From Petrosia ficiformis (Eukaryota > Porifera > Demospongiae > Haplosclerida > Petrosiidae), in NCBI GenBank assembly GCA_947044365.1, contig OX345638.1:5406201-5470200 (forward strand): a stretch of DNA of 64,000 nt. The letters are read 5' to 3'. A program made the translations under genes and the position numbers. Under the pieces are notes generated by a model that ran no database searches, had not been told where the DNA came from, and saw nothing but the letters and a program-made list of their open reading frames with translations. Each line of letters starts with the position of its first letter. The stretch's first letter is position 1. Below are positions 3,374 to 63,117 of this stretch, piece after piece.

Positions 3374-3428
3374 TAATTACCTATTACTATTACTAGTATC
3401 TATTAGAATTACCCTATGTCTGTAATTC

Positions 3429-9256: not shown

Positions 9257-12200
9257 ATGACTGCATCAACAGTGAAGGAGGTAAGAATCAAAATCAACGT
9301 ATATATGTGATAATTAATAAGATTTTGCTCATTTACAGCAACAATTGCATTTTTTATTTCAATCTTCTAAACAGGAATCCGAATCAATTAATATACTAGT
9401 AACAGGGAAGACAGGAGTCGGAAAGTCGTCCATTACAAATGCCATTATTGGAGAAATAGTTGCAGAAGAAGGTAAATCCTTAGGAGGTGTAACTAGGGAT
9501 ATTTCTTGTCACGAGAGAACAGTAAATCATATCAAGTTCAAAGTATGGAAATCTTCTGGTCTTCAAGATATAACAGATGAAGATGGTGAAATTACAAAAA
9601 GGATTATGCAGACCTTAAAGCAACACTGCAGTCACCTGCATCTTTTGTTATACTGCATTCGTATGGATCGAGATCGTATTGAAATATCAGAGTTTGAAGC
9701 TATTAAGCAGTTATCTCAATTGTTTAGTCCTAAAATTTGGGAATCTGCAATTTTTGCCCTCACATTTGCGAATCGTGTTATACCTCCACCAGACATGGCA
9801 ACCGATGAAGAAGAAGCTCAGTGGTTTAAAGAGCGTATAAAAATGTTTCAGGCGGCGATTGTCAGAACTTTAGTAGAAGTTGGTGTTCCAGAGGATAAGG
9901 CAAAACAAGTACCAGTTATTCCAACAGGTTATCACAAACCTACTAAGCACATGCCCAACCCATGGAAGCTCTTTGACAGACCTAATTGGTTCAATCCATT
10001 TTCGCATTCATGTGCAAAGCAGATGGAAGAACATACAATAATGACACTTTTGGCTTCACAAAAACATCGTGTTCAAAAGCTAACAGAAGCACAGACAACA
10101 TCAATAGAGGTTATTGCTAATAGTAGTAGCAACTCCATTAAAATCTTAATACTTTATTATTTGCAGAGTCATGCCTGGAAAACAGAAGTTTCAGATTCGA
10201 GCTCTTGGGCTGCACTATTTGAAAAAACAAAGTAGGCATGTTTGCTAATCTGATCTATATCTGTTGTGAATTTACATCAATCGCATGATATGTAACTTAA
10301 ATCAATTGAGTGTACATCCATGTAATACTTCCTCTTATAATGATATTATGATATCATTATAATTATTATTATTGTATGTCAACTTACAGCTGCTACATTA
10401 AATTCTTTTATTATTTAGCAACAATTCACCTGATGAACTTAAAGAGGAAGTCAAGCCAATGCAGAAAAGAAATGTATCAGGTATGGCGAGCACTTATAAT
10501 CATAATGAATTCACATACTAATTTACGAATGGGTTCCTTCAAGTTGAATATTGAAATAGTATTGAAAGTACATGTATAACAATTATCTGTATTTTTACGA
10601 ACTCTACCAAAATTGTGATGTACCACACTTGAACGTGGTGTATACATTCTGAGGCAATTACATGGGGTTCAACACATATAGACTCCTAGCCCACACTTTG
10701 ATTTATGTAAATACATAAAAGCAATTTTTAATGGACTTTCTAACGATAAAGTTTATGGTTAGAAAGTCCATTAAAAATCGGTTACAAGCTCTACCAAAAT
10801 TGTGATGTACCACACTTAAATGACTTAAATGGCTTGCTTACAGTTTTGTAACATTGACAGAGAAGTATAGCATCTAACTGATAAATTTATGGTGAGCAGC
10901 AGTAGTAATAATTTACTTTTAACACTATTTATAATGTTAAACTCCACTTGAACGCGCTTTTGTTGAAAAATGTAGTCTTGTATTTAACCACACCTCCTCT
11001 TAAAACCCACAGTTTAAGAGGGGCTTCATCTGGGAACAAGTCTAATAGTTGTATGAAGAATACACTACATCTAATTGCCATGGCAATGGAGTGTAAATAA
11101 GTATTAAAGTGTGATCTTATTGCACTTCAAAAATTATATTACACAGTCAGACCTGTTATTACAGACCCTGAAAAATGGAGACACCCAGTGGCTTGGCTAG
11201 GAGGGGAGTTGTTGGGTTTAGGCATGTAACGTTTCGTGACAACAGACAACAACAAATAATTTTAATGAATGACTTATATCTAATCTTTGAAGGTGTTTTG
11301 CGAATCGAATTACTTGTCCTCTGCAATTAATTTTCCATGATTTTTTTTATGCCCTGTAAGGCCATTCCTATGATTGCTTTCCAAGGGGTTTAATTGTATA
11401 TATCATATTTATATTGTTGCGTGAGTATGTGTTGTATACGTAGTTAAGGAAATTGCATCATTCAACGCACGCTTGATAGTGATGTTCGATACCATAAAAA
11501 AAGAATTCGGTTTGATACCAAGTACTTTTTTCTCAGTATGGGAAGTATCGAGTACGATACCAAGTATAGTAGCTACATGTATGTGCATGTGCAATTTGTC
11601 ACGTGGGTTATCAATTTATTTATCATAATTTGGCAAAACAAGTTGGAGATAATACATGAACACAACTTGGTGAAAACAACTACTAGTGGAGTAAGAGTGC
11701 AGCGAAATACTATCTATGTGACATGTTATGATTGTTCGAATAATAGTTTCGTGTTGTGGTTTTAATTGATTAGTAAGCCTATAATCACTTAGTAAACATG
11801 TTGCAGTGTTGCTATAGGAATTTCACGCAATGAACAAAAGCAAAGTTTGTTGTAAGGCTGGATCTCTTGATTTTTACAAGTGATGGACTGAGAAAGTCGC
11901 TAAAGTGTGGGCGTTGACCACTGACTACTGCATTTGTAAAACACTCGTCTAGCTGCTTTCTACCAACAAATAAAGAATATCCACGGCCTTCTTAAAAGGT
12001 CTTCTGTCCAACCAAGTAAGCAGCTTTGAAATCCAAAAGTTACACAGCTGATAGATGTGGGCATTGCCCTCGAGAGCAAAACACTCGCGCTATCGATCAC
12101 CTTGCTGTCTTTCTGCAACTAAAGAAGAGTTCCAAATAGCTTTCTTGTTATTTCTTATATCCAACACAGTAATAGCTATAATCTAAATTGCTTAGATGCC

Positions 12201-15200
12201 GTATTCTTCGTTTCTACGCTCAATCATCAATTGAAAGACTAGGCAGCCATGACTTGAAGTTATTCAAAGCCCATTTGTTACAGCAAAGAGTATTATTCGG
12301 AACGAAAACTTTCTTTGCTAATAATACTTCCTCATCTGAAACTTTCTTGAAACGATTTCTTTTTAAAGACAAGGATTATCTTGGTTTCACAGGTGGAACA
12401 TTCTCCTTATCCTCCATGCTATCATGTGCTCTATAGTATGTACTAGTGCGCATGCTCAGATGAATAAAATGGCATCCACCAATACGATATATTGTTTATA
12501 GTATGGTAGGCAAGTGCTCTATGAATGTTAGCAGACCTTTGGCCTCTGTTTATTATTTGTAGTTGTGAAAGAAATTTCACAAGTGTTGGCATCATTCTAA
12601 TGCGTATTTATCGACATAAAAGCTTATAACTCAGCAAAGGTATGTCAGATTTCAAAAGCGATTATACCACCATGAAGAAGACCAGGTGCAGATTCAAAAA
12701 AATATTTTAGAAATAAGTTTTGAAAAATTGTTTTCTCATCCGCAGTCATATATACTGATTAGGTACTGATTAGTGTTAGAGCATTTTCATAATTATTTTA
12801 ACATTAATATCCTATTGTAAATATACCAGTGTGTGAGTTTTGGAATCAAATTATCATGAATCTTTCATCTCTTGTATGGAAGAATTGACAAGAGTACAAG
12901 ATCTCACCCAGCTGAAAACATGCGTGGGAGTAGCTGTATATCTTTTTCAACTGAGAACCACATTTACCAATTATAATCAAGTGTTTATAGTTTAATATGA
13001 CAATTTTTAGTTTTTAAATTTTTTGCTTCATGGTGTGTGAAATAGCATGATAAACTAGTTTTTCTTCATAGAAAACTAGGTCTAGCACATAATTCACGTT
13101 TGTGTTTGCACTATGTAATCAATCTGTCCAGCGTTATGTATCATTTTGATAATGATCTCCAATCCATGTACTTGATCATTCTTTTCACTCATCTCATTGT
13201 ATAAAAGGAAAAAATTATAATTGTACATATAATTATATATTTTCCAATAAGCCTTTTATGACTTAAATAATGCAGGATGATTTTATCAGTGCATTGTAAT
13301 TTGTGGTATAATTGTGCTTCTGAAAATCTTTGTCTTTCTTACATTCATAAGCTGATTTACTTTTACTGTAAAATTCAGGTAATCAAAAGGAAATTGAGAA
13401 GTACAAGAAGCTGCTCCGACATTTATATGACAAAAATTTTGATGCTAAAGGTGTAGCATTTGTCATTGGAATATCCGGTCCAGAAGGAGTCGAAATTGAT
13501 GTTGAAAATATGACGTCAACATTTAAGGAGTTGCATCTTGCTGTTTCATCTCATAATGATTTGACCTCGAGTGAATTGATATCATTGTTACATGTTGCTT
13601 GCACATCTGTCTATCCACCTGGTTACAAGTTTATAGTGTTTTATTATGCTGGTCACGGTGGTGTTGATCCTGGTAATGGAGAAGGTTATGTCTTACCATT
13701 ACAACTTCAGGAGGCAGGTGATCCTGAAAAGGTGTATATTGAAGATGATATTGTTTCTCGATTTTCAACAGAAATTTCACCATTACTTGAGTATCGTTAT
13801 CGTATTTTACTTTTTGATTGTTGTTTGAGCACTCAATCCACTAGAAATGATCCTGAAGATCTTTCAACGAAACCTCAAAAATTCGATCTCAAAGCTCATG
13901 GTGGTTGCCTGGTCGCCTATGCAACATCCAGAAGCTACAAATCAGAGGGTGACAACTGCAGAGGAGGATTGTGGACGTATCATCTTCATCAGAATTTGAA
14001 GCTTCCTATGCCGATTAGTGTTGTTCTAGATCGAACACACGATGCTGTAAGGAAAGAATCTAGGGCTTACGGAAGAATACAGGAACCCAACTATCACTCC
14101 TGCATTGGTGAAGTTTATTTGAAAGGTAGAATATTTTGTTCTAATATTAATCATGAAATGCTATATTATATTCCTGTGTAATACATGCTTTCTGATTTGA
14201 AACATACAGTAGCTCCTTATATGTAACTACATGTATAACATAATCTGAATGATATAAAATTATGATGTATGGACAATAAACTATTATTATATCTAATACA
14301 GATACCGATAGCGTTCCTAATCTCATTTCCACATCAACATCTAGTGTGCAGAAAAATCCAAAAGGTGAGAAATATTGCCACTCAGTATTGCTCCTTTCAC
14401 AACAGTAACACAATAACTAGGAAATGTTCTTTTTATAGCAGAAAACCTGTCATGCATGTATAATTGTTATAATAATGTAAATTAACCATTTCAAAAATTT
14501 TTCTTTGCATGTTCAGGGCAGACTGTTACAAATACATCCATACTGAAGAAATCTCCTGAGAAGATTGATGTTTTCAACTTGCTCAAAAAGAAATCAGCTC
14601 ATTGGGATGACTTTGCTAGGGAGCTAAATATTGATGACAACTCACGACAAGAGCTCGCAATTGAAGGTAATACTACAACTAGCAGAAGCAAGCTGGAAAA
14701 GGTGCTCGTAAAGTGGATCAACGGTGAGACATCTGAAGTAACATGGAAATACATCATTGATGTATTAGAAGGGCTCGAGTTTATAGAACTAGCAAGAAAT
14801 GTGAAAGATTTCCTACGAAAACAAGATGTGGTCAAAAAATATAGTGAAAAACGTGATTTTGAAGGTATAACTTGTATTACTATACATTATATTGTCCAAG
14901 CACACAAACATTCGTAATCATAATTATAATAATTATAATAATTAGGGCTTAATGTGCATTGAATGCAAGTCATACAATTTTTAACATTTTAATAAAAACT
15001 GAACATTTCAACCCGAAGGTCTTCAAGTTGAAACATTCAGTTTTTTTATTAATAATTTTTTAAAGAAAATTCTACCGTGCTAATAATGCTCAATAAAAAA
15101 ACTCTACTAATAATGCTACATCTAGTTGTCATGGCAATGGCCAATGGAGTCTAAATAAGTAATAAAATCTGGTCTTCTTACACTTCAACAATTATATTAT

Positions 15201-18200
15201 ACAGTCAAACCTGTTACTCGAAAATGGCAACACCCAAGTGGCTTGGCTTAGGAGGGGAGTTGTTGGAGTTTAGCTTACTTTGGCATGTCATCCCTACCAA
15301 CAGCTAACTGTGCTCTATCAATTATACCTCTAACTTAATTAGTCTTGAGCCTGTGTTATAATGCATACACCAACAACACATTCATTGTTTTCAAAACGAA
15401 ATTGTGAAGGTGTGTTAATCATTATATTAAAAAAATCATTATATAATTATGATAGTGTGCAGTGCATACATTATGCTGTAATAATTGAGTGCAATCTATG
15501 AATACTTAATTAGCCATGTAAAGTGTTGGGGACATTTTGCATTCCAGAGTGTGCTTACTGTACTTACTACTCCAGCTATACCACTGCATACACCTGGATG
15601 TTAACACAAGGTCTCAAACAGTTTTCCATTGCAGCTTGTATATTAGACCATTGGAAAATAGGAATGGAATATCGACAGAATTTTACTCTTACCCTGATAT
15701 ACGCTATTGTAGCTTACATATTATAGACAACAATAAGGATAAAAACTAAACCTGCAAGTACAGCAATACTTGAAATGAATGATTTATATCTAATCTTTGA
15801 ACGAATTTTGCGAATCCAATTAGTTGGTTTTCCATGATTTTTGTATATATCAATATTGTGCATAACGAAAATTTAATAGTTAATTCTGTGAAACAAAGAC
15901 TCCGGAGAAAGTCACAAAGTGTCTAGAATACACAGGTTTTATAACATGTTTTGCTTAGCTCCATTATTTAAATAATTTAGATAGGTTATGTACAATGAAA
16001 CTGTGAAGAAAAACAAGTTATCTTTCAATCTTCTTTTCTCTCAATATCTACATAGATATTCCTGTTTCACTCGAGGCTGTTATCGAGGCTTTAAAAGAAG
16101 GATCTGGTCACATGAATTTAGCACTCATATTAATGCATGGTGCACCATCTGTTGGGAAGTCCAGTGTTAATCGTTTACTACAAGGTCTACCACCCCTACC
16201 AAAAAGCCAACAACACAGCACGGCTTTATTTGAAAATGCAGTTCGTTTAATCAACACTGGCCAACTTGCTCTAACTCCAGATAATGTTCTGGACTGCGTT
16301 GATGAGAAGAAACTAATGATTATGTTTGCTAACTATATTTCACAACGAATGGAGGAGAGTACAATAGAAGCAAGTGTAACTCAAGTTACTCAAACATTAA
16401 GTCACAAAACACCTCAATCTCTACTGCAGTCAACCTCACATGTTATCTCCTCATCAAGTGATATTCCAACCATGGACACAAACCAGGTTAAAATATCAGA
16501 TGCTGTTACCGAGATCAATAACCCTACGAAATACTCTTCTGACCTTTTCGATAGTGTTCCAACCATTCACACAGACGAGTTTGAGATATCAGATGTTATG
16601 AAAGATATTGTTACCAACCTCAATAGAGGTACGAGATTCCCTTCTCACCTTTTTAATGATAAATGGTTTCACATAGTTGATTCTGGGGGTCAACCTCAGT
16701 TTGGTGATGTTCTTCCTCTAATGTTTCCAAAAGTATCATTGCATATGGTTGTGATTCGACTAGACGAGAAGTTGGATGACAAGCCAAAGATCCGTTACCT
16801 AGTAGCTGGTGAAGACAACTATGATCTACCAGAAAATCTTTCACTCTCCTATCTACAAATGATAGAGAGGACATGTGAGTTAGCTCAGGCAGCCGCTACA
16901 AAAAATCAGGAAGGTCATTCACCAAGGGTCGTCATAGTGGCTACACGTTTAGATTGCGTTTGTCCTGAAGAGTCTTTAAGGCAAAAGAATCGCCGGCTTG
17001 AGGAGGTGTTTGAAAGATACAAACACATTATTGTACGTAAAAGTAGTAGTGAGATAATTTTTGCTATGAATGCAATGATTCCAGAAGGAGAGGTACGTAA
17101 GGAGTATACTTGTGTGCTTCAGAATGTCCTTTTGAATGCCCCGCCTGTTCACACTAGTGATGTTGAGGTTCCAGTGAGATGGATGCTATTATATTTAGAG
17201 CTTAGCCGACTTTCTGAAGAAGGGCTGTTAGAGATGTCTACCTGTGAAGCAGTGGCAGATCGACTTGAGATGCGTAATGATCTATCAAATGCTCTGGATT
17301 ACTTCACAAAAGTTGCCTTACACATGCGCTTCGCCGATAAACTACCCAAGCTTGTTTTCACACAAGTAGCTCCAATTGTTTCTCGACTATCAACAGTGAT
17401 TGCAGCTTCTTTCACTCAACCGGAATTTGACCCAATTCAGCAAGAAAGAGAGAATCTAAAACGCAAAGGTATTGTAACAAAAGCCTTTGTCCACAAATTG
17501 TTCAAAGACAAGTTTAAGCAAAATCCATTCTCAGTGGACGACTTCTTCTCTCTCCTTGAACACCTACTTATTGCCGTGAACATCGATGATAGCGAATATT
17601 TCATCCCATGTGTTTTACCACTTGATGATCCTAATCCAGAGGATTTTCCAACCAAATCTGCTAGCCTTCCTGTCCTTCTCACTTGGAATAAGGAAGTTCT
17701 CCCTCAAGGATTTTTTCCTGCTTTGATTGTTAAATTGCTTCAAAGGAAAACTCCTCCAATTTTCACCCATTGTGCTGGAGAAAAACAACTTCGACGTGCA
17801 GTTTACCTCAACTCGGAATACGGTGCTCTTCGTTTAGTTGATCAAACCTCGTGGTTTGAGTTGTATTTTGCTGGTAAAATGCAGTATTCTCCCATCGTGC
17901 TTGAAGCCGTTGAAGATTCTTCTCGTGCCCTCGTAGATGTATTGAAAATTCACGGTTTCGGTGAACTTAAACGCGCGTTCCATTGTACTGGTGTTTGTGG
18001 CAGCAAAGATCCAGTTCATCCTGCTCTCCTCACAGTCACTAATGAGGGTCAGTGTACAAAGAGGGAAGCTTGCCGTTTCCCTTTGTCATCACAGCATATG
18101 TGCTGGATCAATGCCACTGAAGGTATTATAATAATTATTATAAAATTATTAAAATACTTAATGAAAATTCCAGGCTTATATACTTTTATTTTCATTTCAA

Positions 18201-18795
18201 TGCGTGCCAAGTGTATTTTGTTTGCCAGTTTCTCATGTTAACAATAATTATTGTTTTAACAATACTTCATAAACAATAGTGCAATTTTCTGTTTTACTAA
18301 ACTTGATGCACTTCAATGACAAAGGATTATTAATAATTTGATTTTGACTTATTAGCAGTCATAGTATATAAAGACCTGTGTAACCACTATAAGAATATTT
18401 TTGCTGTATAATTATGATAACCAGAAGTGAATATTATTTATCTATTATTCTATTTAGAAACAAACTCTACTGATACCAGACCTGCACCTAAAAGCTCCAA
18501 TGTGTTGAGATCAAACCACGCAGACCTATGTAGACTACTAAATGGTAGTGAACCAACTCTATTATCGTTAACAGCTGAGCTGTATGCTAAAGGAATCATT
18601 GACACAAATATAAAGATTGATGTTCTCAACAAAGGAGGATTTTCTGGTGCTGATATTTTACTCACTCATGTACAAATGAAGATTGAGCAGAGTCCTGAAC
18701 ATCTAGATATCGTCCAAAAAGCAATGGAAAATGAACAATTCCTTCATGAAATAGTCAAGAAAATGAAAAAGGAAACTACAAAGGAACACATTTGA
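9257..18795 (+). CDS. AIG1 GTPase / caspase-like / death / Roc-COR / CARD-like protein, copy A
   Basis: Eight-exon model from GT-AG sites with matching phases: 9257-9280, 9339-10231, 10419-10480, 13379-14125, 14302-14364, 14517-14864, 16056-18122, 18458-18795 (stop TGA), giving 4,542 nt and 1,513 aa. Domain order: AIG1 GTPase (about 25-230), caspase-like (330-576), linker, death domain (about 613-710), Roc-COR-like GTPase (732-1,400), CARD-like helices (about 1,415-1,505). No signal peptide or membrane span is seen, so it is probably cytosolic. All introns from exon 3 onward are phase 1. The domain set (two GTPases, a cysteine-peptidase fold, two death-superfamily-type modules) suggests a nucleotide-gated scaffold in cell death or innate immunity; that role is inference. 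The AIG1 G3 motif is damaged. It could be two genes if transcription breaks in the 2.9-kb intron, but frame continuity argues for one. Confidence 0.8.
9339..10231 (+). CDS. AIG1-type GTPase exon, copy A (degenerate G3)
   Basis: Encodes residues 9-306. G1 is GKTGVGKSS (31-39), the switch-I threonine lies in GGVTRD (T60), and G4 is ALTFANR (148-154), as in AIG1/IMAP and Toc-like GTPases. At the G3 position the expected DSPG (kept in copies B and C) reads KSSG (79-82), so the metal-contacting Asp is a Lys. This should weaken Mg-GTP handling. After the G domain a 60-residue tail, shared with copy B, ends in SSWAAL. The donor is AAA|GTAGGC at 10,232, inside the apparent stop codon of the unspliced frame. 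Confidence 0.85.
10419..10480 (+). CDS. Small connecting exon, copy A
   Basis: A 62-nt exon after a TATTTAG acceptor encoding a polar, charged linker with an EEVKPMQK motif. It takes phase 2 in and gives phase 1 out. Copy B has the same exon at 33,380-33,441. In copy C the same linker is fused directly to the GTPase exon (59,876-59,920), which supports its coding status in all three. Confidence 0.75.
10724..10778. repeat. Perfect 21-bp hairpin with 13-nt loop
   Basis: 10,724-10,744 and 10,758-10,778 are exact reverse complements around a 13-nt loop (10,745-10,757). Only a single arm exists at the corresponding place in unit B (about 35,512), so the hairpin is particular to A. It lies inside an intron of the GTPase gene. 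It could be a MITE tip, a recombination product or a small-RNA hairpin; sequence alone does not decide. Confidence 0.8.
11058..11345. repeat. Direct repeat R1, left of the caspase/death-domain exons
   Basis: Shares with 15,110-15,850 (R2) the blocks GCCATGGCAATGG / GTCATGGCAATGG, ACAGTCA.ACCTGTTA, GTGGCTTGGCT.AGGAGGGGAG and ATATCTAATCTTTGAA followed by TTTTCCATGATTTTT. R1 and R2 are in the same orientation and about 4.05 kb apart measured at the shared GGAGGGGAGTTGTTGG word. Copy B holds one hybrid version at about 35,672-36,350. Confidence 0.8.
13379..14125 (+). CDS. Caspase-like (peptidase C14) exon, copy A only
   Basis: Encodes residues 327-576 on one phase 1-1 exon. The p20-type signature is present: a strand and the histidine motif YYAGHGG (415-421, H419), then LLFDCCLS with the putative nucleophile C475. 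The DCC form resembles metacaspase-like and bacterial orthocaspase sites (DCCHSG) more than the QACRG box of classical caspases. An acidic stretch (EDDIV) lies between the two motifs. The domain starts with a charged helix (KEIEKYKKLLRHLYDKNF). No clear p10-like unit or cleavage linker is obvious. Both catalytic residues are kept, so it may be active, as inference. Confidence 0.8.
14302..14364 (+). CDS. Linker exon, copy A only
   Basis: A 63-nt, phase 1-1 exon after a TAATACAG acceptor, encoding a Ser/Thr-rich linker (DTDSVPNLISTSTSSVQKNP) between the caspase-like and death domains. Joining it keeps both neighbours in frame. It could be skipped without a frame change. Confidence 0.65.
14517..14864 (+). 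CDS. Death-domain exon, copy A only
   Basis: Encodes residues 597-713 (phase 1-1). The six-helix death-domain pattern is clear: HWDDFARELNI with W626, then KLEKVLVKWINGE, TWKYIIDVLEGL and ELARNVKDFL. These match the conserved W, the WL-like helix-4 and the TW..LI.AL helix-5 motifs of the family. A charged tail (KKYSEKRDFE) leads to the Roc exon. Death domains make homotypic contacts in death and NF-kB signalling complexes. Copies B and C have no counterpart. Confidence 0.88.
14865..16055. other. Intron of copy A with hairpin and repeat R2
   Basis: An 1.2-kb intron. It holds an imperfect hairpin (14,991-15,012 with 15,027-15,050, loop of 14 nt) and direct repeat R2 (about 15,110-15,850). The short open frames at 15,523-15,749 recur in unit B but with changed ends and are not called genes. 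The acceptor CTACATAG at 16,048-16,055 is shared by all three copies. Confidence 0.6.
15110..15850. repeat. Direct repeat R2, right of the caspase/death-domain exons
   Basis: Partner of R1 at 11,058-11,345. R2 continues with CTTACTTTGGCATGTCATCC and TTAATTAGTCTTGAGCCTGTG, words absent after R1 but present in copy B after its R1-like left half. That asymmetry marks the deletion in B. Confidence 0.8.
16056..18122 (+). CDS. Roc-COR-like GTPase exon, copy A
   Basis: Encodes residues 713-1,402 on one 2,067-nt exon. Roc-like G motifs: G1 HGAPSVGKSS (740-749), G3 VDSGGQPQF (D921), G4 ATRLD (T1009-D1012). About 170 residues separate G1 and G3, far more than in ordinary small GTPases. Next comes a winged-helix-like region (RWMLLYLELSRL, ALDYFTKVALHMRF) and a COR-like part (FFSLLEHLLIAV, YFIPCVLPL, LPQGFFPALIVKLL). 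The C-terminal part is cysteine-containing and ends in HMCWINATE. ROCO proteins use this module for GTP-dependent dimerisation. The unspliced frame runs on to 18,241, but the donor GAAG|GTATTA is conserved in all copies. Confidence 0.82.
18458..18795 (+). CDS. C-terminal CARD-like helical exon, copy A
   Basis: The last exon encodes residues 1,402-1,513 after an ATTTAG acceptor and ends in TGA. After a Ser/Pro-rich linker (TDTRPAPKSSN) come about six predicted helices: HADLCRLL, PTLLSLTAELYAKG, SGADILLTHVQMKIEQ, PEHLDIVQKAM, FLHEIVKKMKKE. The pattern A..LL..V...I...P......+...L resembles the helix 4-6 region of CARD and related death folds. Identity with CARD is suggested, not proven. The exon is the most conserved of the gene between copies. 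Confidence 0.6.
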
Positions 18796-32192: not shown

Positions 32193-35100
32193 ATGACTGC
32201 ATCAACAGTGCAGGAGGTAAAAATCAAAATCAACGTATATATGTGATAATTAATAAGCTTTTGCTCATTTACAGCGACAATTGCGTTTTTTATTTCGATC
32301 TTGTAAATGTGAATCCGAATCAATTAATATACTAGTAATAGGGAAGACAGGAGTTGGAAAGTCTGCCATTACAAATGCCATTATTGGAGAAAGTCTCGCA
32401 CCAGAAGTTAAAGAACTAGAAGGTGTAACTAGGGATGTTACTTGTCACGAGACAATTATAAATCATATCAAGTTCAGAGTATGGGATTCTCCTGGTCTTC
32501 AAGATATCACAGAGATAGATGATAACATTACAGAAAGGATTATGCAGACCTTGAGGCAACACTGCAGTCACCTGCATCTTTTTTTATACTGCATTCGTAT
32601 GGATCGAGATCGTATGGAAATATCAGATTTTTATGCTATGAAGCAGTTATCTCAATTGTTTACTCCTAAAATTTGGGATTGTGCAATTTTTGCCCTCACA
32701 TTTGCGAATCGTGCTTTACCTCCACCTGAAATGAAAATAGAAACCAAGGAAGAAGCTGCTCAGTGGTTTAAAGAGCATATCAAGAAGTTTAAGGAGGCAA
32801 TTGTCAACGCCTTAGTAGAGAATGGCATTCCAACAAATAAGGCAAAACAAGTACCTGTTATTCCAACAGGTTATCACCCTTCCATATTTATGTCCAACAC
32901 AAGGGAGCTCTTAGACAGACCTGACTGGTTCACTCCATTTTGGCATTTATGCACAAGGCAGATGAAAGAAAATACAATAATGGCACTATTGGCTTCACAA
33001 AAACAAGTAGTTAAAGGTAAAACAACATCCGATAAGGCACAGGAGGGTGCAGAGAAACGACAGGAACTAAAAAGGAAAGCAACAATAGTAGAGGTTATTA
33101 CTAATAGTCGTAACAACTTCATTAAAATCATAACTCTTTATTATTTGCAGAGTCATGACTGGAAAATAGAAGTTTCAGATTCAAGTTCTTGGGCTGCACT
33201 AATTGAAAAAACAAAGTAGGCATGTTTGCTAATCTGATCTATATCTGTTACGAACTTACATCGATCGCATGATAATTTGTAAATTAAATCAATTCAGTGT
33301 ACATCCATGTAATAATTCCTCTTTATAATAATATTATCATATAATTATAATATTTTATATACTTCATTTTAATATTTAGCAACACTTCATCTGGTGAACT
33401 TAAAGAGGAAGTCAAGCCAATGCAGAAAGAAAATGTATCAGGTATGGTATGCACTTATGATTATTATGAATTTACATGCTAATTATTTGTAAAATACATA
33501 GATGGGTTTAAGGATGAGTTCCTTCAAGTTGAATATTTGAAAGTATAACAATTATCTGTATTTTTACAAAAAATGTTGATAACTCTACCAACTCTGTGAT
33601 GTACTACATGACTTGGCTGGCTTACAGCTTTGTAACACTGGCATGCAGACAAATATAGCATCTAACTGATAAAATTATAGTTAAGTGTAGAGAACTCGAA
33701 CGACGTCCGTCCTTTAAATCCTAGTCCTTGTTTCGGTGGACAATTTATTGTAAGGTTGACTGGATTCTCATTGCCAAAGATTGTATTGAAAGAAATAAAG
33801 AAACTGCACACGATGTTTCGACTGTGTAGTTTTCTTCAAGTGTGCAGTTTGTCTGTGCATGCAGGCTATTTATACAGAAACAAAAAAACAAAAAACAAAA
33901 AACAAAAAACAAAAAACAAAAGTTGCAAAAATAAAAATAAATAAATGAATAAATAAATAATATTGTATAATATATAATACAAAGCGCATGTACAAAAATT
34001 AATAAAGATGTACTGAAAAAAAGTGACCTGTTAAATATGATGTGAGTGTGCCAGCGTGTGTGGGTGGAGAGTCTATGACATCACAATCTGTCTCGTCTCG
34101 GATTGATCTCTAAAGGTTGATAGGTCTGGAGTAAGGTAATCCACTTGCTATCTCTGATCTTCCTTAGAGGAGTGTCTCTCTTCCATAGTTGTTCTATTAC
34201 CATTACTTGCAAGTCCTCCAGAGTGTGTTGTAGTGAATTGAAGTGGGCAGCAACTGGTTTTTCATGAATCTTTTTATTGACAATATCGAAACGGTGGCCG
34301 TTCATTCGTTCATTCAAGGTCTGCTCTGTCTCACCCACATACTGGAGTCCACATCTTTTGCAAGAAATTAAGTAAATGAGATTGGAAGATTTGCAGGTGG
34401 CTTTGCATCTAATTTGGTACTGTTTTCCTGTGGTCTTGCTGGAAATTTGATCTGTTGTGACCAATATCGGGCATGTATTACACCTCAGCCTTCCACAAGG
34501 TGAATTTCCAGGTGTTTCCCTTGGTCTTGTGGAGACTTCAGCATGTACCAGGAGATCCTTTAAGTTCTTTGGTCGTCTATAAGATCTGAGGGGAGGAGAA
34601 GGAGATGCAGCTTTCATTCTTTCTGAGGAACACATAATTGGATGGAGTTCCTTTGTAATACTGCCTAATGGTGGATTAGAGGGATGGTAAGTTACAACAA
34701 GAGTATTCGAGTTTCTTCTTTTTTCTCCGTTGTTTGAAGGCAGTCTTCTCTTGTTTTTGTAGATGCTTGTTTTTTGTTTTGGTTGATGTGGTATGAGGTA
34801 GTCTTTCGTCTTCTTATCGATTAAACCTTTTGTGAACAGCTGTTGGACTTGCTGTTTGTCTTCCTTTTAGAAGGGAGGTGTTAGCTCTTTTTCTAGTTTC
34901 TGGTAAAAACTTGTATCACCAAGTTGTCTGCCTGTTTCTGCTAAATAGTCTTCTTTATTCATCACTACTACTGCTGATCCTTTGTCTGCTTCCTTGATGA
35001 TGATGTCATCCCTCTTTTGCAGATCTTTGAGTGCTTTCCTTTCTTCTGGTGTTGGGTTGTCTCTGGCTTTCGGAATGCTGGTGTTCCCATTCAAGATGCA

Positions 35101-38100
35101 TCTTCTCACAGTTTTAATGTAGGTTTCCATCTCTTCCTTTTCCTGGCATCCATGTACTTGGTGGTTTAAATGCAGGAATGTCTGTTTATTTATTTATTCT
35201 TTATTTTTTTGCAACTTTTGTTTTTTGTTTTTCGTTTTTTTGTTTTTGTTTTTTTGTTTCTGTATAAATAGCCCGCATGCACAGACAAAACACACACTTG
35301 AAGAAAACTACACAGTCGAAACATCGTGTGCAGTTTCTTTATTTCTGATAAAATTATAATGAGCAGCAGTAGTAATAATTTATTTTGAGCACTATGTATA
35401 ATATTAAACTCCTCTTGGATGTGGTCTATCCAGGCAATTAAGGCCAAGGAGAGAATAGACCACACTTACATGGGGTTCAACACATTTAGACTTTGATTTA
35501 TGCAACCGTTTATTAATGGACTTTCTACTGTATTTGTAATTTCTTAGTTCAATTTTATATGAAGCGCTTTGTTGAAAAATGTAATATTTATTTAGTCTTG
35601 TATTTAACCACACCTCCTCTTAAAACCCACGGTTTAAGAGGCAGTTCGTCTGGGAACAGGTCTAACAGTTGTATGAAGAATAAACTACGTCTATACAGTC
35701 AAACCTATTATTCCAGACCCTGGAAAATGGAGACACCCAGTGGCTTGGCTAGGAGGGGAGTTGTTGGGTTTAGCTTACTTGGGCATGTCATCCATCCCAA
35801 CAGTCCTAACAATCATGCCTCTACGTTAATTAGTCTTGAGCCTGTGTTATAATGCATATATCAACAACACATTAATTGGTTTCAAAACCAAATAGTTAAT
35901 GTGTGGTTAATCATTATAAATATATATAGTTATATAATTATGGTAGTGTGCAGTGCATACATGTACATTATGAATTAAATCTGTAATAATTGACTACAAA
36001 CCATGAATACTTAATTAGCCATGTAAAGTTTTGGGGACACTTTGCATTCCAGAGTGTGCCCTACTGTACTTACTACTCCAGCTATACCGCTGCATATACA
36101 CCTTGATGTTAACACAAAGTCTCAAACATTTTTCCATTGAAGCTTGTATATTAGACCATTGGATAATAGGGATGGAATATGGACAGAATTTTACTCTTAC
36201 CCCGATGTATGCTATCGTAGCTTGCGTATTATAGACAACAATAAGGATAAAAACTAAACCTGCAAGTACAGCAATACTTGAAATGAATGATTTATATCTA
36301 ATCTTGGAACGAATGTTGGGAATCGAATTAGTTGGTTTTCCATGATTTTTGTATAAATCAATATTATGTATAATGACAATTTAGTAGATAATCCTGTGAA
36401 ACAAAGACAGCTCCATACTCAGGACAGGGTCACAAGGTGTCCTGAATACACACGTTTTACTGTATAGTTGAATGTGTTTTGCTTAGCGCCATTATTTAAA
36501 TGATTTATATAGGTTATGTACAATGAAACTGTGAAGAACAACAATTTATCTTTCAATCTTTTTTTTCTCTCAATATATACATAGATATTCCTGTTTCACC
36601 TGAGGTTCAAGCTGCTGTTATTGAGGCTATAAAAGAAGGATCAGGTGACATGAATTTAGCCCTCGTCTTATTGCATGGTGCACCAGCTGTTGGGAAGTCC
36701 AGCATAAATCGTGTACTACAAGGTCTACCACCCCTACCAAAAAGCCAACAACACAGCACAGCTTTATTTGAAAATCCAGTTCGTTTAATCAACACTGGCC
36801 AACTTGCTCTAACTCCGGATAATATTCTGGATCATGTTGATGAGAATAAACTAATGAACATGATAGCTGCACACATTTCACAACAAAAGGAGGAGAGTAC
36901 AGCAGAAGAAGATGTAACTCAATCATCAAGTCCCAAAACAGTTCAATCTCTACTACAGTCAACTTCACATGTTATCTCCTCATCAAGTGATATTCCAACC
37001 ATGGACACAAACCAGGTTAAAATATCAGATGCTGTTACCGAGATCAATAACCCTAACTCTTCTGACCTGTTCGATAGTGTTCCACCCATTCACACAGACC
37101 AGGTTGAGATATCAGATGTTGTCAAAGGTATTGTTAGCGAGCTCAGTAAAGTTACGAAATACTCTTTTCACCTTTTCAATGTTCGATGGTTTCATATAGT
37201 TGATTCTGGCGGTCAACCTCAGTTCAGTGATGTTCTTCCTCTAATGTTTCCAAAAGTGTCATTACATATGGTTGTGATTCGACTAGATGAGAAGTTGGAT
37301 GACAAGCCAAAGATCCGTTACCTAGTAGCTGGTGAAGACAAATACGTGCTTCCAGAAAATCTTTCACTCTCCTATCTACAAATGATAGAGAGGACATGTG
37401 AGTTAGCTCAGGCAGCTGCTAGAAAAAATCAGAAAGATAAGCCTCCGAGGGTCGTTGTAGTGGCTACACGTTTAGATTGCGTTTGTCCTGAAGAGTCTTT
37501 GCTACAGAAGAATTGTCGTCTTGAGAAGGTGTTTGAAAGACACAAACACATTATCATACGTAAGAATAGTAATGAGATAATTTTTGCTATGAATGCAATG
37601 GTTCCAGAAGGAGAGGTACGTAAGGAGTATACTCGGGTGCTTCAGAATGTCCTTTTTGATGCTCCACCTGTTCACACTTGTGATGTTGAAGTTCCAGCCA
37701 GATGGATGCTATTATATTTAGAGCTTAGCCGACTTTCTGAAGAAGGGCTGTTAGAGATGTCCACTTGTATAGCAGTGGCAGATCGACTTGAGATGCGTAA
37801 TGATCTACCAAATGCTCTGGATTTCTTCACAAAAGTTGCCTTACACATGCGCTTCACTGATAAACTACCAAAGCTTGTCTTCACAAAAGTAAATCCAATT
37901 GTTTCTCGACTGTCGACAGTGCTTGCAGCTTCTTTCACTCAACCAGAATTTGCACCAATACAGCAAGAAAGAGAGAATCTAAAACTCAATGGTATTGTAA
38001 ACAAAGCCTTTGTCCACACATTGTTTGATGGCAGGTTTAAGCAACATCCATTCTCAGTGGATGACTTCTTCTCCCTCCTTGAATACCTACTTATTGCTGT

Positions 38101-39354
38101 GAACATCGATGATAGCGAATATTTCATTCCATGTGTTTTGCCACTTGATGATCCTAACCCAGAAGATTTTCCAACCAAATCTGCTGGACCTCCTGTCCTT
38201 CTCACTTGGAATAAGGAAGTTCTCCCTCAAGGGTTTTTTCCTGCTTTGATTGTTAAATTGCTTCAAAGGAAAATTGCTCCAATTTTCAGCCATTGTGCTG
38301 GGGAAAAACAACTTCGACGTGCAGTTTACCTCAAATCACAATACGGTGCTCTTCGTTTAGTTGATCAAACCTCATGGTTTGAGTTGTATTTTGCTGGTAA
38401 AATGCAGTATTCTCCCATCGTGCTTAAAGCAGTTGAAGATACTTCTCATGCCCTCGTAGATGTATTGAATATTCACGGTTTCGGTGAACTTAAACGTGCG
38501 TTCCATTGTACAGGTGTTTGTGGCAGCAAAGATCCAGTTCATCCTGCTCTCCTCACAGACACTAATGAGGGTGTATGTACAAAGAGGGAAGCTTGTCGTT
38601 TCCCTTTGTCATCAGAGCATATGTGCTGGATCAATGCCACTGAAGGTATTATAATAATTATTATAACATTATTAAAATGCTTAATGAAAATTCCAGGCTT
38701 ATATACTTTGGCCAGAAATGTTTTAATTTTATTTTCATTTCAATGCATGCCAAGTGCATTTTGTTTGCCAGTTTCTCATGTTAACAATAATTATTGTTTT
38801 AACAGTACTTCATAAACAATAGTGCAATTTTCTCTTGTGCAATTTTCTCTTTTAATAAACTTGATGCACTTCAATGACAAAGGATTATTAATAATTTGAT
38901 TTTGACTTATTAGCAGTCATAGTATATAAAGACCAGCGTAAACCACTATAAGAATATTTTTACTGTATAATTATGATAACCAGAAGTGAATATTATTTAT
39001 TTATTATTCTATTTAGAAACAAACTCTACTGATACCAGACCTGCACCTAAAAGCTCCAATGTGTTGAGATCAAACCACGCAGACCTATGTAGACTACTAA
39101 ATGGTAGTGAACCAACTCTATTATCGTTAACAGCTGAGCTGTATGCTAAAGGAATCATTGACATAAATATAAAGATTGATATTTCCAACAAAGGAGGATT
39201 TGCTGGTGCTGATATTTTACTCACTCATGTACAAATGAAGGTTGAGCAGAGTCCTGAACACCTATATATCGTCCAAAAAGCAATGGAAAACGAACAATTC
39301 CTTCGTGAAATAGTCAAGAAAATGAAAAAGGAAACTACAAAGGAACACATTTGA
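32193..39354 (+). CDS. AIG1 GTPase / Roc-COR / CARD-like protein, copy B
   Basis: Five-exon model: 32193-32216, 32275-33215, 33380-33441, 36585-38645, 39017-39354, giving 3,426 nt and 1,141 aa. It lacks the caspase-like, linker and death-domain exons of copy A; the EEVKPMQK linker exon (phase 1 out) splices straight to the Roc-COR exon (phase 1 in), so the frame is kept. It is the only copy whose AIG1 domain keeps both the G2 threonine and the G3 aspartate. Its 3.1-kb intron 3 carries a Penelope-like element. The frame has no stop or shift in any exon, so the copy is probably functional. Confidence 0.8.
32275..33215 (+). CDS. AIG1-type GTPase exon, copy B (intact motifs)
   Basis: Residues 9-322. 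G1 GKTGVGKSA (31-39), G2 T60 in GVTRD, G3 DSPG (D79), G4 ALTFANR. The segment after the G domain is 16 residues longer than in copy A, with a lysine-rich piece (KRQELKRKA). As in A, the donor AAA|GTAGGC overlaps the stop of the unspliced frame. Confidence 0.85.
33805..33846 (-). ncRNA. Hammerhead-ribozyme-like motif, 3' end of Penelope element
   Basis: On the minus strand: a 7-bp stem TGCACAC/GTGTGCA encloses TTGAAGA, a 3-bp stem ACT-ACAC-AGT, then CGAAAC and ATC. This follows the hammerhead order CUGANGA, stem II, GAAA, NUH, with the first core C replaced by T. Penelope-like elements are known to carry minimal hammerheads with a very short stem III. Activity is doubtful given the core change. 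Confidence 0.5.
34081..34866 (-). pseudogene. Penelope-like GIY-YIG endonuclease part
   Basis: Open from 34,866 to a stop at 34,081. It has a Zn-type CGRLRCNTC motif, then the GIY-YIG core (LIYLISCKRCGLQYVGET, ERMNGHR), as in Penelope endonucleases. Upstream, a lysine-rich stretch replaces the RT palm and is followed by a thumb-like SNPPLGSI piece, so the RT core was deleted with the frame kept. A single TAA at 34,867-34,869 separates it from the N-terminal part in the same frame. Confidence 0.82.
34867..35130 (-). pseudogene. Penelope-like RT N-terminal part
   Basis: An 87-residue frame with DIIIKEADKGSAVVVMNKEDY, the conserved pre-RT motif (ADKG.AVVV) of Penelope-like and related reverse transcriptases. 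It ends at a TAA that is in frame with the endonuclease part. No RT catalytic motif (YxDD-type) is present anywhere in the element. Confidence 0.8.
35291..35330 (+). ncRNA. Hammerhead-like motif, opposite end of Penelope element
   Basis: Inverted copy of the motif at 33,805-33,846: TTGAAGA, ACT-ACAC-AGT, CGAAAC, ATC, GTGTGCA. Its outer stem is weaker because the 5' side reads ACACACAC. Confidence 0.45.
35672..36350. repeat. Hybrid R1/R2 repeat: deletion junction in copy B
   Basis: The left part (CAGACCCTGGAAAATGGAG, CACCCAGTGGCTTGGCTAGG) follows R1 of copy A. The right part (CTTACTTGGGCATGTCATCC, TTAATTAGTCTTGAGCCTGTG) follows R2. The switch lies near 35,750-35,775. This marks where about 4 kb with the caspase and death-domain exons was lost. 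Confidence 0.8.
36585..38645 (+). CDS. Roc-COR-like GTPase exon, copy B
   Basis: 2,061 nt, one exon, residues 343-1,030. G1 HGAPAVGKSS, G3 VDSGGQPQF and G4 ATRLD are intact. It starts with the DIPVSPEVQAAVIEAIKEG helix shared with copy C; copy A lacks two or three residues there. It is closest to copy A in the G1-G3 spacer, where both carry the SSSDIPTMDTNQVKISDAV block. Confidence 0.82.
39017..39354 (+). CDS. C-terminal CARD-like helical exon, copy B
   Basis: 338 nt, residues 1,030-1,141, TGA stop. It differs from copy A at about ten residues (for example INIKIDISNK for TNIKIDVLNK), none disrupting the helical pattern. Confidence 0.6.
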
Positions 39355-59078: not shown

Positions 59079-62000
59079 ATGACTGCATCAACAGTGATGG
59101 AGGTAAGAATCAACATACATATGTGATAATTAATAAGCTTTTGCTCACTTACAGCAACAATTGCGTTTTTTATTGCAATCTTCTAAACATGAATCCGAAT
59201 CAATTAATATACTAGTAACTGGAAAGACAGGAGCTGGAAAGTCATCCATTACAAATGCCATTCTTGGAGAAATACTTGCACAGGAAGGTAAAGACTTAGG
59301 AGGTGTAGGTAGAGAGGTTACTTGTCACGAGAAAACAGTAAGTCATATCAAGTTCAAAATGTTGGATTCTCCTGGTCTTCATGATACCCCAGAGGAAGAT
59401 CGTGAAATTACGAAAAGGATTGCACAGACCTTGAGACAACACTGCACTCACCTGCATCTTCTTTTATACTGCATTCGTATAGATCGAAATCGTATTGAAA
59501 GATCAGAGTTGCCTGCTATTAAGCATGTATCTCAATTGTTTAGTCCTAAAATTTGGGATTGTGCAATTTTTGCCCTCACATTTGCGAACCGTGCTTTACC
59601 TCCACCTGAAAAGGAAACCGATGAAGAAGTAGCTTCGTGGTTTAAACAGCATATAAAAGAGTTTCAGGATGTGATTGTCAGAGCTTTAGTGGAGAGTGGT
59701 GTTTCAGAGTATAAGGCAAAACAAGTACCAGTTATTCCAACAGGTTATCACAAACCTCTTAAGTGGATGCCCAACCCAAGGAAGCTCTTTGACAGACCTG
59801 ATTGGTTCAATCCATTTTGGCATTCATGCACAAAGCAAATGGAAGAAAATACAATAATGGCACTATTGCCAAGTAAAGTTAATGAGGAAGTCAAGCCAAT
59901 GCAGAAAGGAAATGTATCAGGTATGGCATGCACTTATAATTATTATGAATTCACATACTAATTTGTAAAATGCATAAAAAGCTTTAAGGTGAGTTCCTTC
60001 GAGTTGAATATTAAAATAGTATTGAAAGTATAACAATTATCTATATTTTTGCAAACTCTACCACAATTGTGATGTACTACATGACTTAAATGGCTGGCGT
60101 ACAGACAACAATAAATGTTTTTGATAAAAACAAAACCTGCAAGTACAGTGTATTAAACAATACTTGAAATGAATGATTTTAAATTTCAAATCAAATTACT
60201 TGTTTTTCCATGATTTTTGTGTAATTGATTATGCATAATGACAATGTAGTAGTTAATTCTGTGAAACAAAGGCTGCTCCATAATCAGGACAAAGTCACAA
60301 GGTGTCTGGAATACACATTTTACTGTATAACTGAACGTGTTTTGCTTAGCTCCATTATTTAAATAATTTAGATAGGTTATGTACAATGAAACTGTGAAGA
60401 AAAACAATTTATCTCTTTTCTCTTGATATCTACATAGATATTCCTGTTTCACCTGAGCTTCAAGCTGCTGTTATCGAGGCTATAAAAAAAGAAGGATCTG
60501 GTTACATGAATGTAGCACTCGTCTTATTGCATGGTGCACCAGCTGTTGGGAAGTCCAGCATAAATCGTATACTACAAGGTCTACCACCCCTACCAAAAAG
60601 CCAACAACACAGCACAGATTTATTTGAAAATCCAGTTCGTTTAATCAACACTGGTCAACTTGCTCTAACAAAAGGTAATGTTCTGGAACATGTTGATGAG
60701 AATAAACTAATGAACATGATAGCTGCACATATTTCACAACAAAAGGAGGAAAGTTCACCTGAAGCAAGTGTAACTCAAGGTACCCAGTCAAGTCGTAAAA
60801 CACCTGAATTGAGAATTCCATCAAGTGATATTCGGACCATTCACACAGACCAAGTTGAGAGATCAGGAGTTGAGCTCAATAAGACTGTGGAATACTCTTC
60901 TGACCATTTCAATATTCCAACCATTGACGTTGAGGAATCAGATGTTATCAAAGGTATTGCTACTGAGCTCGATAACGTTACGAAATGCTCTTCTAACCTT
61001 TTCAGGGATCGATGGTTTCACATAGTTGATTCTGGTGGTCAGCCTCAGTTTAGTGATGTTCTTCCTCTAATGTTTCCAAAAGTATCGTTACATATGGTCG
61101 TGATTCGACTCGATGAGAAGTTGGATGACAAGCCGAAGATCCGTTACTTAGTAGCTGGTGAAGACAAATACAAGATTCCAGAAAATCTTTCACTCTCCTA
61201 TTTACAAATGATAGAGAGGACATGTGAGTTAGCTCAGGCAGCCGCTACGAAAAATCAGGAAGATAATCCCCCAAGGGTCGTTGTAGTGGCTACACGTTTG
61301 GATTGCGTTTGTCCTAAAGAGCCTTTAAAGGAAAAGAATCGCCGTCTTGAGGAGGTGTTTGAAAGATACAAACACATTATTGTACGTAAAAGTAGTAAGG
61401 AGGTAATTTTTGATATGAATGCAATGGTTCCAGAAGGAGAGGAACGTAAGGAGTATACTCGTGTGCTTCAGAATGTCCTTTTGAATGCCCCGCCTGTTCA
61501 CACTAGTGATGTTGAGGTTCCAGTCAGATGGATGCTATTATATTTAGAGCTTAGTCGACTTTCTGAAGAAGGTCTGTTAGAGATGTCTACTTGTGAAGCA
61601 GTGGCAAATCGAATTGAGATGCTTAGTGATCTATCAAATGCTCTGGATTACTTCACAAAAGTTGCCTTACACATGCGCTTCACTGATAAACACAAGCTTG
61701 TTTTCACAGAAGTAAATCCAATTGTTTCTCGACTGTCAACAGTGCTTGCAGCTTCTTTCACTCAACCAGAATTTGCAGCATTAGAGCAAGAAAGAGATAA
61801 TTTAAAAGTCAATGGTATTGTAAGCAAAGCCTTTGTCCAGAAATTGTTTGATGGCAAGTTTAAGCCAAGTCCATTCTCAGTGGATGACTTCTTCTCGCTT
61901 CTTGAATACCTACATATCTCTGTGAAGATCGATGATAGCGAATATTTCATTCCATGCGCTTTACCCCTTGAAGATCCTAACCTAGAAGATTTTCCAAACA

Positions 62001-63117
62001 CATCTGACCCTATCCTTCTCACTTGGAATAACAAAGTCCTACCTCAAGGCTTCTTTCCCGCTTTGATTGTTCATCTGCTTCAAAGAAAAAGGCCCAAATT
62101 TAGCTATTGTGCTGGTGAAAAGCAACTTCGACGTGCAGTTTGCCTCAAATCACAATATGGTGCTCTCCGATTAGTTGATCAAACCTCGTGGTTTGAGTTG
62201 TATTTTGCCGGTAAAACGCAATATTCTCCCATCATGCTTAAAGCAGTTGAAGATTCTTCTCATGTCCTTGCAGATGTATTGAAAAGTAACATTTTCGGCA
62301 AGCTTAAACGTGCATTCCATTGTACAGGTGTTTGTGGCATCAAAAATCCAGTTCATCCTGCTCTCCTCACAGACACTAATGAGTGTCAGTGTACAAGAAA
62401 GGAAGCTTGGCGTTTTCCTTTGTCATCAAAGCATATGTGCTGGATCAATGCCACTGAAGGTATTATAACATTATTAAAATGCTTAATGAAAATTCCAGGC
62501 CTATATACTTTGGCCAGAAATTCCCATACATGCCAAGTGTATTTTGTTTGCCAGTTTCTCATGTTAACAATAATTATTGTTTTAATGGTACTTCATAAAT
62601 AATAGCGCAATTTTCTGTTTTACTAAACTTGATGCACTTCAATGACAAAGGATTATTATTTGATTTTGACTTATTAGTATATAAAGACCAGTGTGAACCG
62701 CTATAAATATGTTATAAAATTATTTTTGCTGTATATGATAACCAGAAGTGAATATTATTTATTTTATTATTCTATTTAGAAACAAACTCTACTGATACCA
62801 GACCTGCACTTATAAGCTCCAATGTGTTGAGATCAAATCACGCAGACCTATGTAGACTACTAAATGGTAGTGAACCAACTCTATTATCGTTAACAACTGA
62901 GCTGTATGCTAAAGGAATCATTGACATAAATATAAAGATTGATATTTCCAACAAAGGAGGATTTTCTGGTGCTGATATTTTACTCACTCATGTACAAATG
63001 AAGATTGAGCAGAGTCCTGAACAACTAGATATCGTCCAAAAAGCAATGGAAAACGAACAATTCCTTCATGAAATAGTCAAGAAAATGAAAAAGGAAACTA
63101 TGAAGGAACACATTTGA
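59079..63117 (+). CDS. AIG1 GTPase / Roc-COR / CARD-like protein, copy C
   Basis: Four-exon model: 59079-59102, 59155-59920, 60438-62459, 62780-63117, giving 3,150 nt and 1,049 aa. The AIG1 exon and the EEVKPMQK linker are one exon here; the 40-70 residues and the intron that separate them in A and B are gone. The caspase-like and death-domain exons are absent; phase 1 joins phase 1 across a 517-bp intron. The first exon reads MTASTVME. No frame damage is seen, so it is probably expressed, though the AIG1 switch-I threonine is replaced. Confidence 0.8.
59155..59920 (+). CDS. AIG1-type GTPase exon fused to linker, copy C (G2 changed)
   Basis: Residues 9-264. G1 GKTGAGKSS, G3 DSPG (D79) and G4 ALTFANR are present, but the switch-I motif reads GGVGRE: the conserved Thr at position 60 is Gly. 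The domain is followed at once by LLPSKVNEEVKPMQK and the phase-1 donor at 59,921. Confidence 0.85.
60438..62459 (+). CDS. Roc-COR-like GTPase exon, copy C
   Basis: 2,022 nt, residues 264-938. G1 HGAPAVGKSS, G3 VDSGGQPQF and G4 ATRLD are intact. The G1-G3 spacer is the most divergent part: it lacks the SSSDIPTMDTNQVK block of A and B and has its own RTIHTDQVERSGVEL piece. The COR-like part is slightly shorter (DPILLTWNN). Confidence 0.82.
62780..63117 (+). CDS. C-terminal CARD-like helical exon, copy C
   Basis: 338 nt ending in TGA, residues 938-1,049. Nearly the same as copies A and B; differences include STTELYAK-type and KETMKEHI changes. Confidence 0.6.

Follow-up and report, generated by a model that had tools for sequence, protein, structure and literature searches.

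The window analysed here, a stretch of 64,000 nucleotides from the sponge Petrosia ficiformis (C3:5406201-5470200), carries a gene model, designated copy A, which is best read, with a probability of roughly 55%, as a young chimeric gene generated by exon shuffling, its most likely product being predicted as an intracellular protein of five domains. According to this reading, a tandemly repeated gene composed of an AIG1 GTPase domain, a Roc-COR region and a tail would have received a cassette encoding a caspase-like peptidase (Peptidase_C14, hereafter C14), a linker and a death domain, which would have entered the phase-1 intron ahead of the Roc-COR exon. The genome searched comprised 191 Mb in 29 contigs, and no Rfam match was found anywhere in the 64-kb window.

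Copy A consists of eight exons on the forward strand, spanning positions 9,257-18,795. A check of splice sites and frame bore out, as a gene model, the in-frame join proposed by the initial annotation: one open frame of 1,513 aa runs to position 18795, all introns start with GT and end with AG, and the phases after exons 1-7 are 0, 2, 1, 1, 1, 1 and 1. Exon 1 (9257..9280) contains the start codon and encodes MTASTVKE, with a matching start in two sister genes of the window, copies B (32193) and C (59079); it is followed by exon 2 (9339..10231), which encodes the AIG1 domain, and by exon 3 (10419..10480), a short linker placed by the frame and splice check and ending in phase 1. Exon 4 (13379..14125) encodes C14, exon 5 (14302..14364) a second linker placed by the same check, exon 6 (14517..14864) the death domain and exon 7 (16056..18122) the Roc-like GTPase plus COR, each of these four being of phase 1 at both ends, and exon 8 (18458..18795) encodes the tail domain and the stop codon. 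When exons 4-6 are left out, the frame remains open and yields 1,127 aa. As predicted from genomic DNA, the gene model of copy A is real and well formed, its order of modules being unusual, and the succession of AIG1, caspase-like, death, Roc-COR and tail modules in a single frame is likewise real at the level of the model. Four of the five module names proposed at the outset could be retained, the exception being a CARD-like tail, which found no sequence-profile support. As a property of the gene, this architecture belongs to the copy A model only, since the C14 and Death exons are present in 1 of 7 tandem units and arrived as a cassette.

The AIG1 exon scored 63 bits in a single-exon Pfam scan, against a cut-off of 27 and ahead of the runner-up family MMR_HSR1 (34.8 bits), so that the proposed label passed its profile check; the AIG1 profile also matched 12 of 14 prokaryote control genomes, above cut-off in 8, and the label is therefore partly general to GTPases. 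Among the named motifs of GTPases are the G1 P-loop and the G3 DxxG. Copy A retains the former (GKTGVGKS) and lacks the latter, the G3 Asp being replaced by Lys; across 15 aligned AIG1 copies this position is Asp in 12, Glu in 2 and Lys in copy A alone. It is probable from these residues that the AIG1 domain of copy A no longer performs normal GTP hydrolysis. The dN/dS of AIG1 among copies A, B and C was about 1.0, a value consistent with diversifying selection as well as with lost constraint; together with the lost G3 Asp, which counts against full function, this value is also compatible with decay. Elsewhere in the genome, weak AIG1 matches of about 25-30 bits were observed at C5:1053846-1180541 and C16:1077679-1134393 within single frames of 899-3,662 aa, which are reminiscent of very large inducible GTPases.

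The proposed caspase fold was upheld by the Peptidase_C14 profile, with 66.7 bits against a cut-off of 21.4 in a single-exon scan, and by an intact catalytic dyad, the His lying in AGHGG and the Cys in FDCCL; both residues are retained in all eight aligned C14 sequences (copy A and seven relatives on contig C1). Classical animal caspases cleave after Asp and are activated by dimerisation, and their active-site pentapeptide is QACxG. The corresponding segment of copy A is FDCCLST, which departs from that pattern and is presumably nearer to the metacaspase or paracaspase type, and for this reason "caspase-like" is the safe name. Matches in the PDB covered the first part of the exon only and were caspase-3-like, with an E-value of about 0.002. 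By protein, the best full-length C14 match in the genome showed 73% identity (C1), and the dN/dS of copy A against the seven C1 relatives ranged from 0.23 to 0.33, a value that mixes time before and after the insertion. The death domain was likewise recovered by Pfam Death, scoring 24.9 bits on the exon frame and 25.8 when trimmed, over a cut-off of 22.6, and hitting 4 of 4 sequences when the exon was taken together with three relatives; when scanned inside the whole 1,513 aa it fell below that cut-off (20.4 bits). The Death-exon profile matched ZZZ3 (0.0038) and FADD (0.025) best in the PDB, and the closest Death match by protein, on C13, was 71% identical.

For the Roc-COR exon, the family as a whole was more informative than the single sequence. 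The 744-aa frame of copy A gave no Pfam match and, as a lone query, only a weak match to LRRK2 (0.13), but a search using seven copies retrieved 49 relatives, of which 41 were aligned with the window sequence. The profile of these 42 sequences matched LRRK2 (5.6e-9) and LRRK1 (1.2e-7), all in the COR part, and also 3dpu (1.8e-4), termed "Rab family protein" in its entry, which we take to be the Chlorobium Roco protein. COR-A was found in 5 of 8 scanned relatives, over the cut-off in 1, while Pfam Roc gave weak sub-threshold matches in 3 of those 8 and none for the window exon. In the 42 sequences, Gly28, Gly33 and Lys34 are nearly invariant, and Asp208, Gly210, Gly211 and Gln212 (DSGGQ) are invariant. 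As judged from the family profile, a COR region follows a Ras-like G domain, the arrangement of Roco proteins. The Roc assignment proposed earlier can thus be kept for the COR part through that profile, with no Pfam match for the exon itself, and the G domain is assigned to Roc as a candidate, on the P-loop and DxGGQ motifs.

The tail exon resembles at least 147 places in the genome and has no relative in Pfam or the PDB. The CARD designation found no support in sequence comparisons, a death fold of the tail being still possible: among 27 tail sequences (26 of 72 proteins plus the window sequence), none gave a Pfam match to CARD, DED or Death; a PDB search with the tail profile returned only an RPN10 chain at 0.93; and none of the genome matches to CARD (16) or DED (11) lay at any of the tail places listed. 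Comparison of the tail profile with the Death-exon profile gave a probability of 0.7 of 100. It was also observed that the tail exons of copies A, B and C (18458-18795, 39017-39354 and 62780-63117) differ by synonymous distances of 0.021-0.035, in comparison with 0.17-0.23 for the Roc-COR exon, and that a tail 97% identical to that of copy A lies 1 Mb away (C3:6409908-6410240), with no AIG1 or Roc-COR beside it among the matches listed. Recent exon spread or gene conversion is a possible cause of this low divergence.

The origin of the central exons became apparent from comparison of the cluster, for which a region of 264 kb was used (2,500 letters of it as N). On its forward strand lie seven units that comprise AIG1, Roc-COR and tail: two upstream, copies A, B and C, and two downstream. 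Copy B (32193..39354, 1,141 aa) and copy C (59079..63117, 1,049 aa), both on the forward strand, are of the AIG1-Roc-COR-tail type, and no trace of C14 or Death was found in their equivalent introns; the two exons occur only in copy A, in the intron preceding the Roc-COR exon. Copies A, B and C and the first upstream unit have an uninterrupted Roc-COR frame; the frame is broken in the second upstream unit by one stop, in downstream unit D by a frameshift and in downstream unit E, which is left in fragments. When the intron of copy A was compared by blastn with that of five other units, the alignment extended to about position 11,316 and resumed at about 15,116 or 15,198, defining a forward-strand insert with approximate borders at 11317..15115 and no counterpart in the units compared. 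A stretch of the ancestral intron (11140..11316) recurs beyond the insert at 15198-15840, with 141 of 168 positions identical. Dating the insertion by this duplication was tried and rejected: the left stretch is about as divergent from the right (141/168) as from copy B (151/177), and the right is nearer to copy B (158/168 over the same columns), so that the duplication may go back to two source copies and yields no date. The tandem copies provide a before-and-after view of exon shuffling, in which the same intron can be seen with and without the cassette and relatives of the cassette are still present.

About half of the insert is the C14-linker-Death cassette (13040..14983) and about a third interspersed repeats, with about 490 bp left unplaced. 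The repeats lie mainly at 11477..12551, in which 11760-12224 recurs at 35 or more other places, 12228-12551 at 4 and 11477-11765 at 2, as counted from 40 scored candidates of 344; further repeats are located at 11,344-11,463 and 14,989-15,121. The latter, at the right end of the insert, is a short palindromic repeat that was also seen 3′ of the Roc-COR exon region of the second upstream unit (L020, L038). The cassette is collinear with a relative at C1:1734901-1737900, the one relative that was compared in full, which has an identical acceptor before C14 and an identical donor after Death; the cassette therefore arrived with no evident initial or terminal exon. That relative is broken: it contains four internal gaps whose lengths are not multiples of three, and each of the three frames is interrupted by stops. 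When L010 and L012 served as outgroup, copy A showed 4, 15 and 15 private changes at the first, second and third codon positions and the broken copy 18, 21 and 17, which corresponds to 19 versus 39 changes at positions 1 and 2 (p 0.012) and 15 versus 17 at position 3 (p 0.86). With each of three outgroup sets, a Fisher test on the codon-position skew gave a non-significant result (p 0.26, 0.16 and 0.34).

The arrangement of the same modules across the genome was also surveyed. Matches numbered 91 for AIG1 (36 of them in the cluster), 138 for C14, 93 for Roc-COR and at least 150 each for Death and tail; the neighbour tally used 91 of 91, 122 of 138 and 64 of 93 of the first three, extra pieces of listed places being dropped, and 150 Death and 147 tail entries among the matches listed, so that all order counts are lower bounds. 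When modules were required to lie on one strand within 6 kb of each other, C14-Death was found at least 23 times, C14-tail-Death at least 13, AIG1-Roc-COR-tail at least 5 and Roc-COR-Death at least 5, and the full order AIG1-C14-Death-Roc-COR-tail once among the matches listed. AIG1 lay within 15 kb of C14 once among those matches, and the two further pairs that appeared at 30 kb are neighbours of copy A. At three places on C1 (C1:1519956-1528308, C1:51319120-51327404 and C1:51452973-51462994), a Roc-COR is followed about 6 kb on by C14, tail and Death, all lying on one strand; these are either pairs of genes or a second type of multi-domain gene that lacks AIG1, and they count against uniqueness, as the modules sit together there also in its absence.

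The reading of copy A as a chimeric gene is supported by its single GT-AG frame and by the presence of C14 and Death in 1 of 7 units within a shared intron, by the frequency of the C14-Death order as against AIG1-C14, by the integrity of the C14 frame and dyad when the C1 relative is broken (19 versus 39 changes), and by the dN/dS of C14. Counted against it are the 2.9-kb, repeat-filled intron before C14, the non-significant codon skew, the G3 loss and dN/dS of AIG1, and the broken sister units. Moreover, a phase 1-1 cassette would fall in the right orientation and phase by chance about 1 time in 6, so that frame continuity is weak proof.

The strongest rival, which we consider rather doubtful, treats the cassette as a passenger: the C14 and Death exons would normally be skipped, copy A would produce the 1,127-aa AIG1-Roc-COR-tail protein, and the recent cassette would eventually decay. 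Such skipping would preserve the frame, and the richness of the insert in repeats, the broken state of related C1 cassettes and of some sister units, and the missing G3 Asp of AIG1 all agree with a locus of this kind; against it, no stop interrupts the frames of C14, linker and Death, every splice signal is present, and C14 has accumulated about half the replacement changes of its broken relative.

Less probable still, and on balance unlikely, is a C14-Death gene nested within the intron with a start of its own, the outer gene being AIG1-Roc-COR-tail. In this genome, C14 followed by Death is often found in the absence of AIG1, and five candidate ATG exons with an accepted donor in phase 1 were found in 11,317-13,350, a number that chance could give. 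However, the C14 exon opens with an acceptor, its frame starting at 13372 with a stop just upstream, the Death exon ends in a donor, a stop (14,917) being reached only by reading into the intron, and the upstream part is largely repeats.

That exons 1-3 and the Roc-COR-tail part are separate neighbouring genes, with no fusion of two GTPases, is very improbable: the opposite strand of the cluster contains many solitary AIG1 genes and Roc-COR without AIG1 exists on C1 and elsewhere, but copies A, B and C share order, strand and a phase-1 junction, no stop ends exon 3, and the other units have the same module order. An assembly error that joined the insert at the wrong place is hardly credible, since, although tandem and interspersed repeats hinder the assembly of such clusters and the insert-flanking sequence is partly duplicated, the locus lies inside an 11.4-Mb contig and its C14-Death differs by at least 27% at the protein level from full-length C14 matches elsewhere, so that it does not correspond to another locus copied here in error.

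Returning to the chimeric gene, a mode of action can be proposed for its putative product. In Roco proteins the switch operates through nucleotide-linked dimerisation; death domains form assemblies, and proximity activates initiator caspases. By analogy, the Roc-COR region could gather chains, the death domain and the tail might supply added contacts between them, and the built-in caspase-like domains, once brought close, would become active through induced proximity; the AIG1 domain of this copy would act as a docking or localising part. On paper, the phase 1-1 cassette exons would be either readable or skippable in frame. If copy A is transcribed as modelled, a single chain would place a caspase-like protease under the direct control of a Roco-type switch, and the growth of death-fold repertoires in early-branching animals would become testable at a single locus. 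A bolder version, possible and advanced tentatively, envisages a single-chain GTPase-gated caspase in which splicing of the symmetric cassette would choose between an armed (1,513 aa) and an unarmed (1,127 aa) form, with AIG1 as a pseudo-GTPase sensor or decoy; were it true, a switch, a protease and a death-domain adaptor, normally separate molecules, would have been fused by a recent insertion.

An immune role of copy A is conceivable in this framework, and the initial annotation had likened it to an NLR-like or PIDDosome-like sensor-effector. Neither NACHT nor LRR, which together characterise NLRs, was among the 20 Pfam families obtained for the whole chain at E-values up to 10. The order of PIDD1 is LRR-ZU5-UPA-Death, of which only Death was listed by Pfam for the chain, with no ZU5. 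The comparison may serve as an analogy, but Pfam gives no NACHT, LRR or ZU5 and the AIG1 domain lacks its G3 Asp. Nearer to copy A are the Roco proteins (LRRK2, LRRK1 and bacterial Roco), with which it shares a COR-like region by profile and the conserved P-loop and DxGGQ; unlike them, its chain has no kinase or LRR, and it carries AIG1 on the N-terminal side and a C14 protease centrally. DAPK1 combines Roc-COR with a death domain, as described in the portion of the literature available.

Related combinations have been reported in other animals. In the snail Biomphalaria, AIG1/GIMAP proteins with death-superfamily domains have undergone tandem expansion (PMC7053062), which resembles the present cluster in both respects; the accessible text of that report names no caspase or Roc-COR partner, whereas in copy A the death domain comes with the protease. 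From the sponge Amphimedon, 357 shuffled TRADD-N proteins were described, whose partners are death-fold domains and in some cases caspase, and AIG-GTPase partners were noted in such fusions of bivalves (PMC8195603). These proteins are alike in their lineage-specific death-fold expansion with variable partners, including caspase and AIG-GTPase, and differ in being centred on TRADD-N; the order of copy A is not named in the part of that source available. A TRADD-N expansion as in Amphimedon was rejected for the present genome, in which one match was found. In the sponge Dysidea avara, the sections consulted describe a transcript joining NACHT to PF00656 (peptidase C14) and two AIG1 genes that respond to symbionts, GIMAP genes having not been detected in Amphimedon (PMC11229196), and a figure legend lists caspase and COR among the partner domains of its NACHT genes (PMC12909245). 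The NACHT-C14 transcript likewise places an NTPase switch and a caspase-like protease in one chain, but with a NACHT ATPase instead of a Roc-COR GTPase and, as described there, no AIG1. Exon shuffling itself is on record for the LRRs of brown-algal Roco genes, according to the part of the report available (PMC11378527).

The principle of shuffled death-fold and AIG1 partners is therefore known, and the literature search, of partial coverage, retrieved neither the five-module combination nor the AIG1-Roc-COR gene type, nor any publication with both "AIG1" and "COR domain". A whole-protein database search, based on few short words, yielded two AIG1 proteins from plants and nothing else; relatives that were later retrieved with the Roc-COR query escaped it, so that it constitutes no proof of absence. 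Among eight database proteins viewed, no spliced relative was recognised, and two (P0003 and P0010) are genomic, because their C-termini read into an intron.

Other features of the region were recorded as well. The intron of copy B contains, on the reverse strand (34084-34866), a 261-aa frame with a GIY-YIG match of 26.1 bits against a cut-off of 22.6, which we assume to belong perhaps to a Penelope-like element, and the intron of unit D shares its layout in the parts compared. At 2524-3376, open frames of 282 aa occur on both strands over one stretch, with no Pfam match above cut-off. Finally, a partial gene with a calponin-homology domain (41.1 bits), which seems to have no connection with the cluster, was identified on the reverse strand at 27508-27954.
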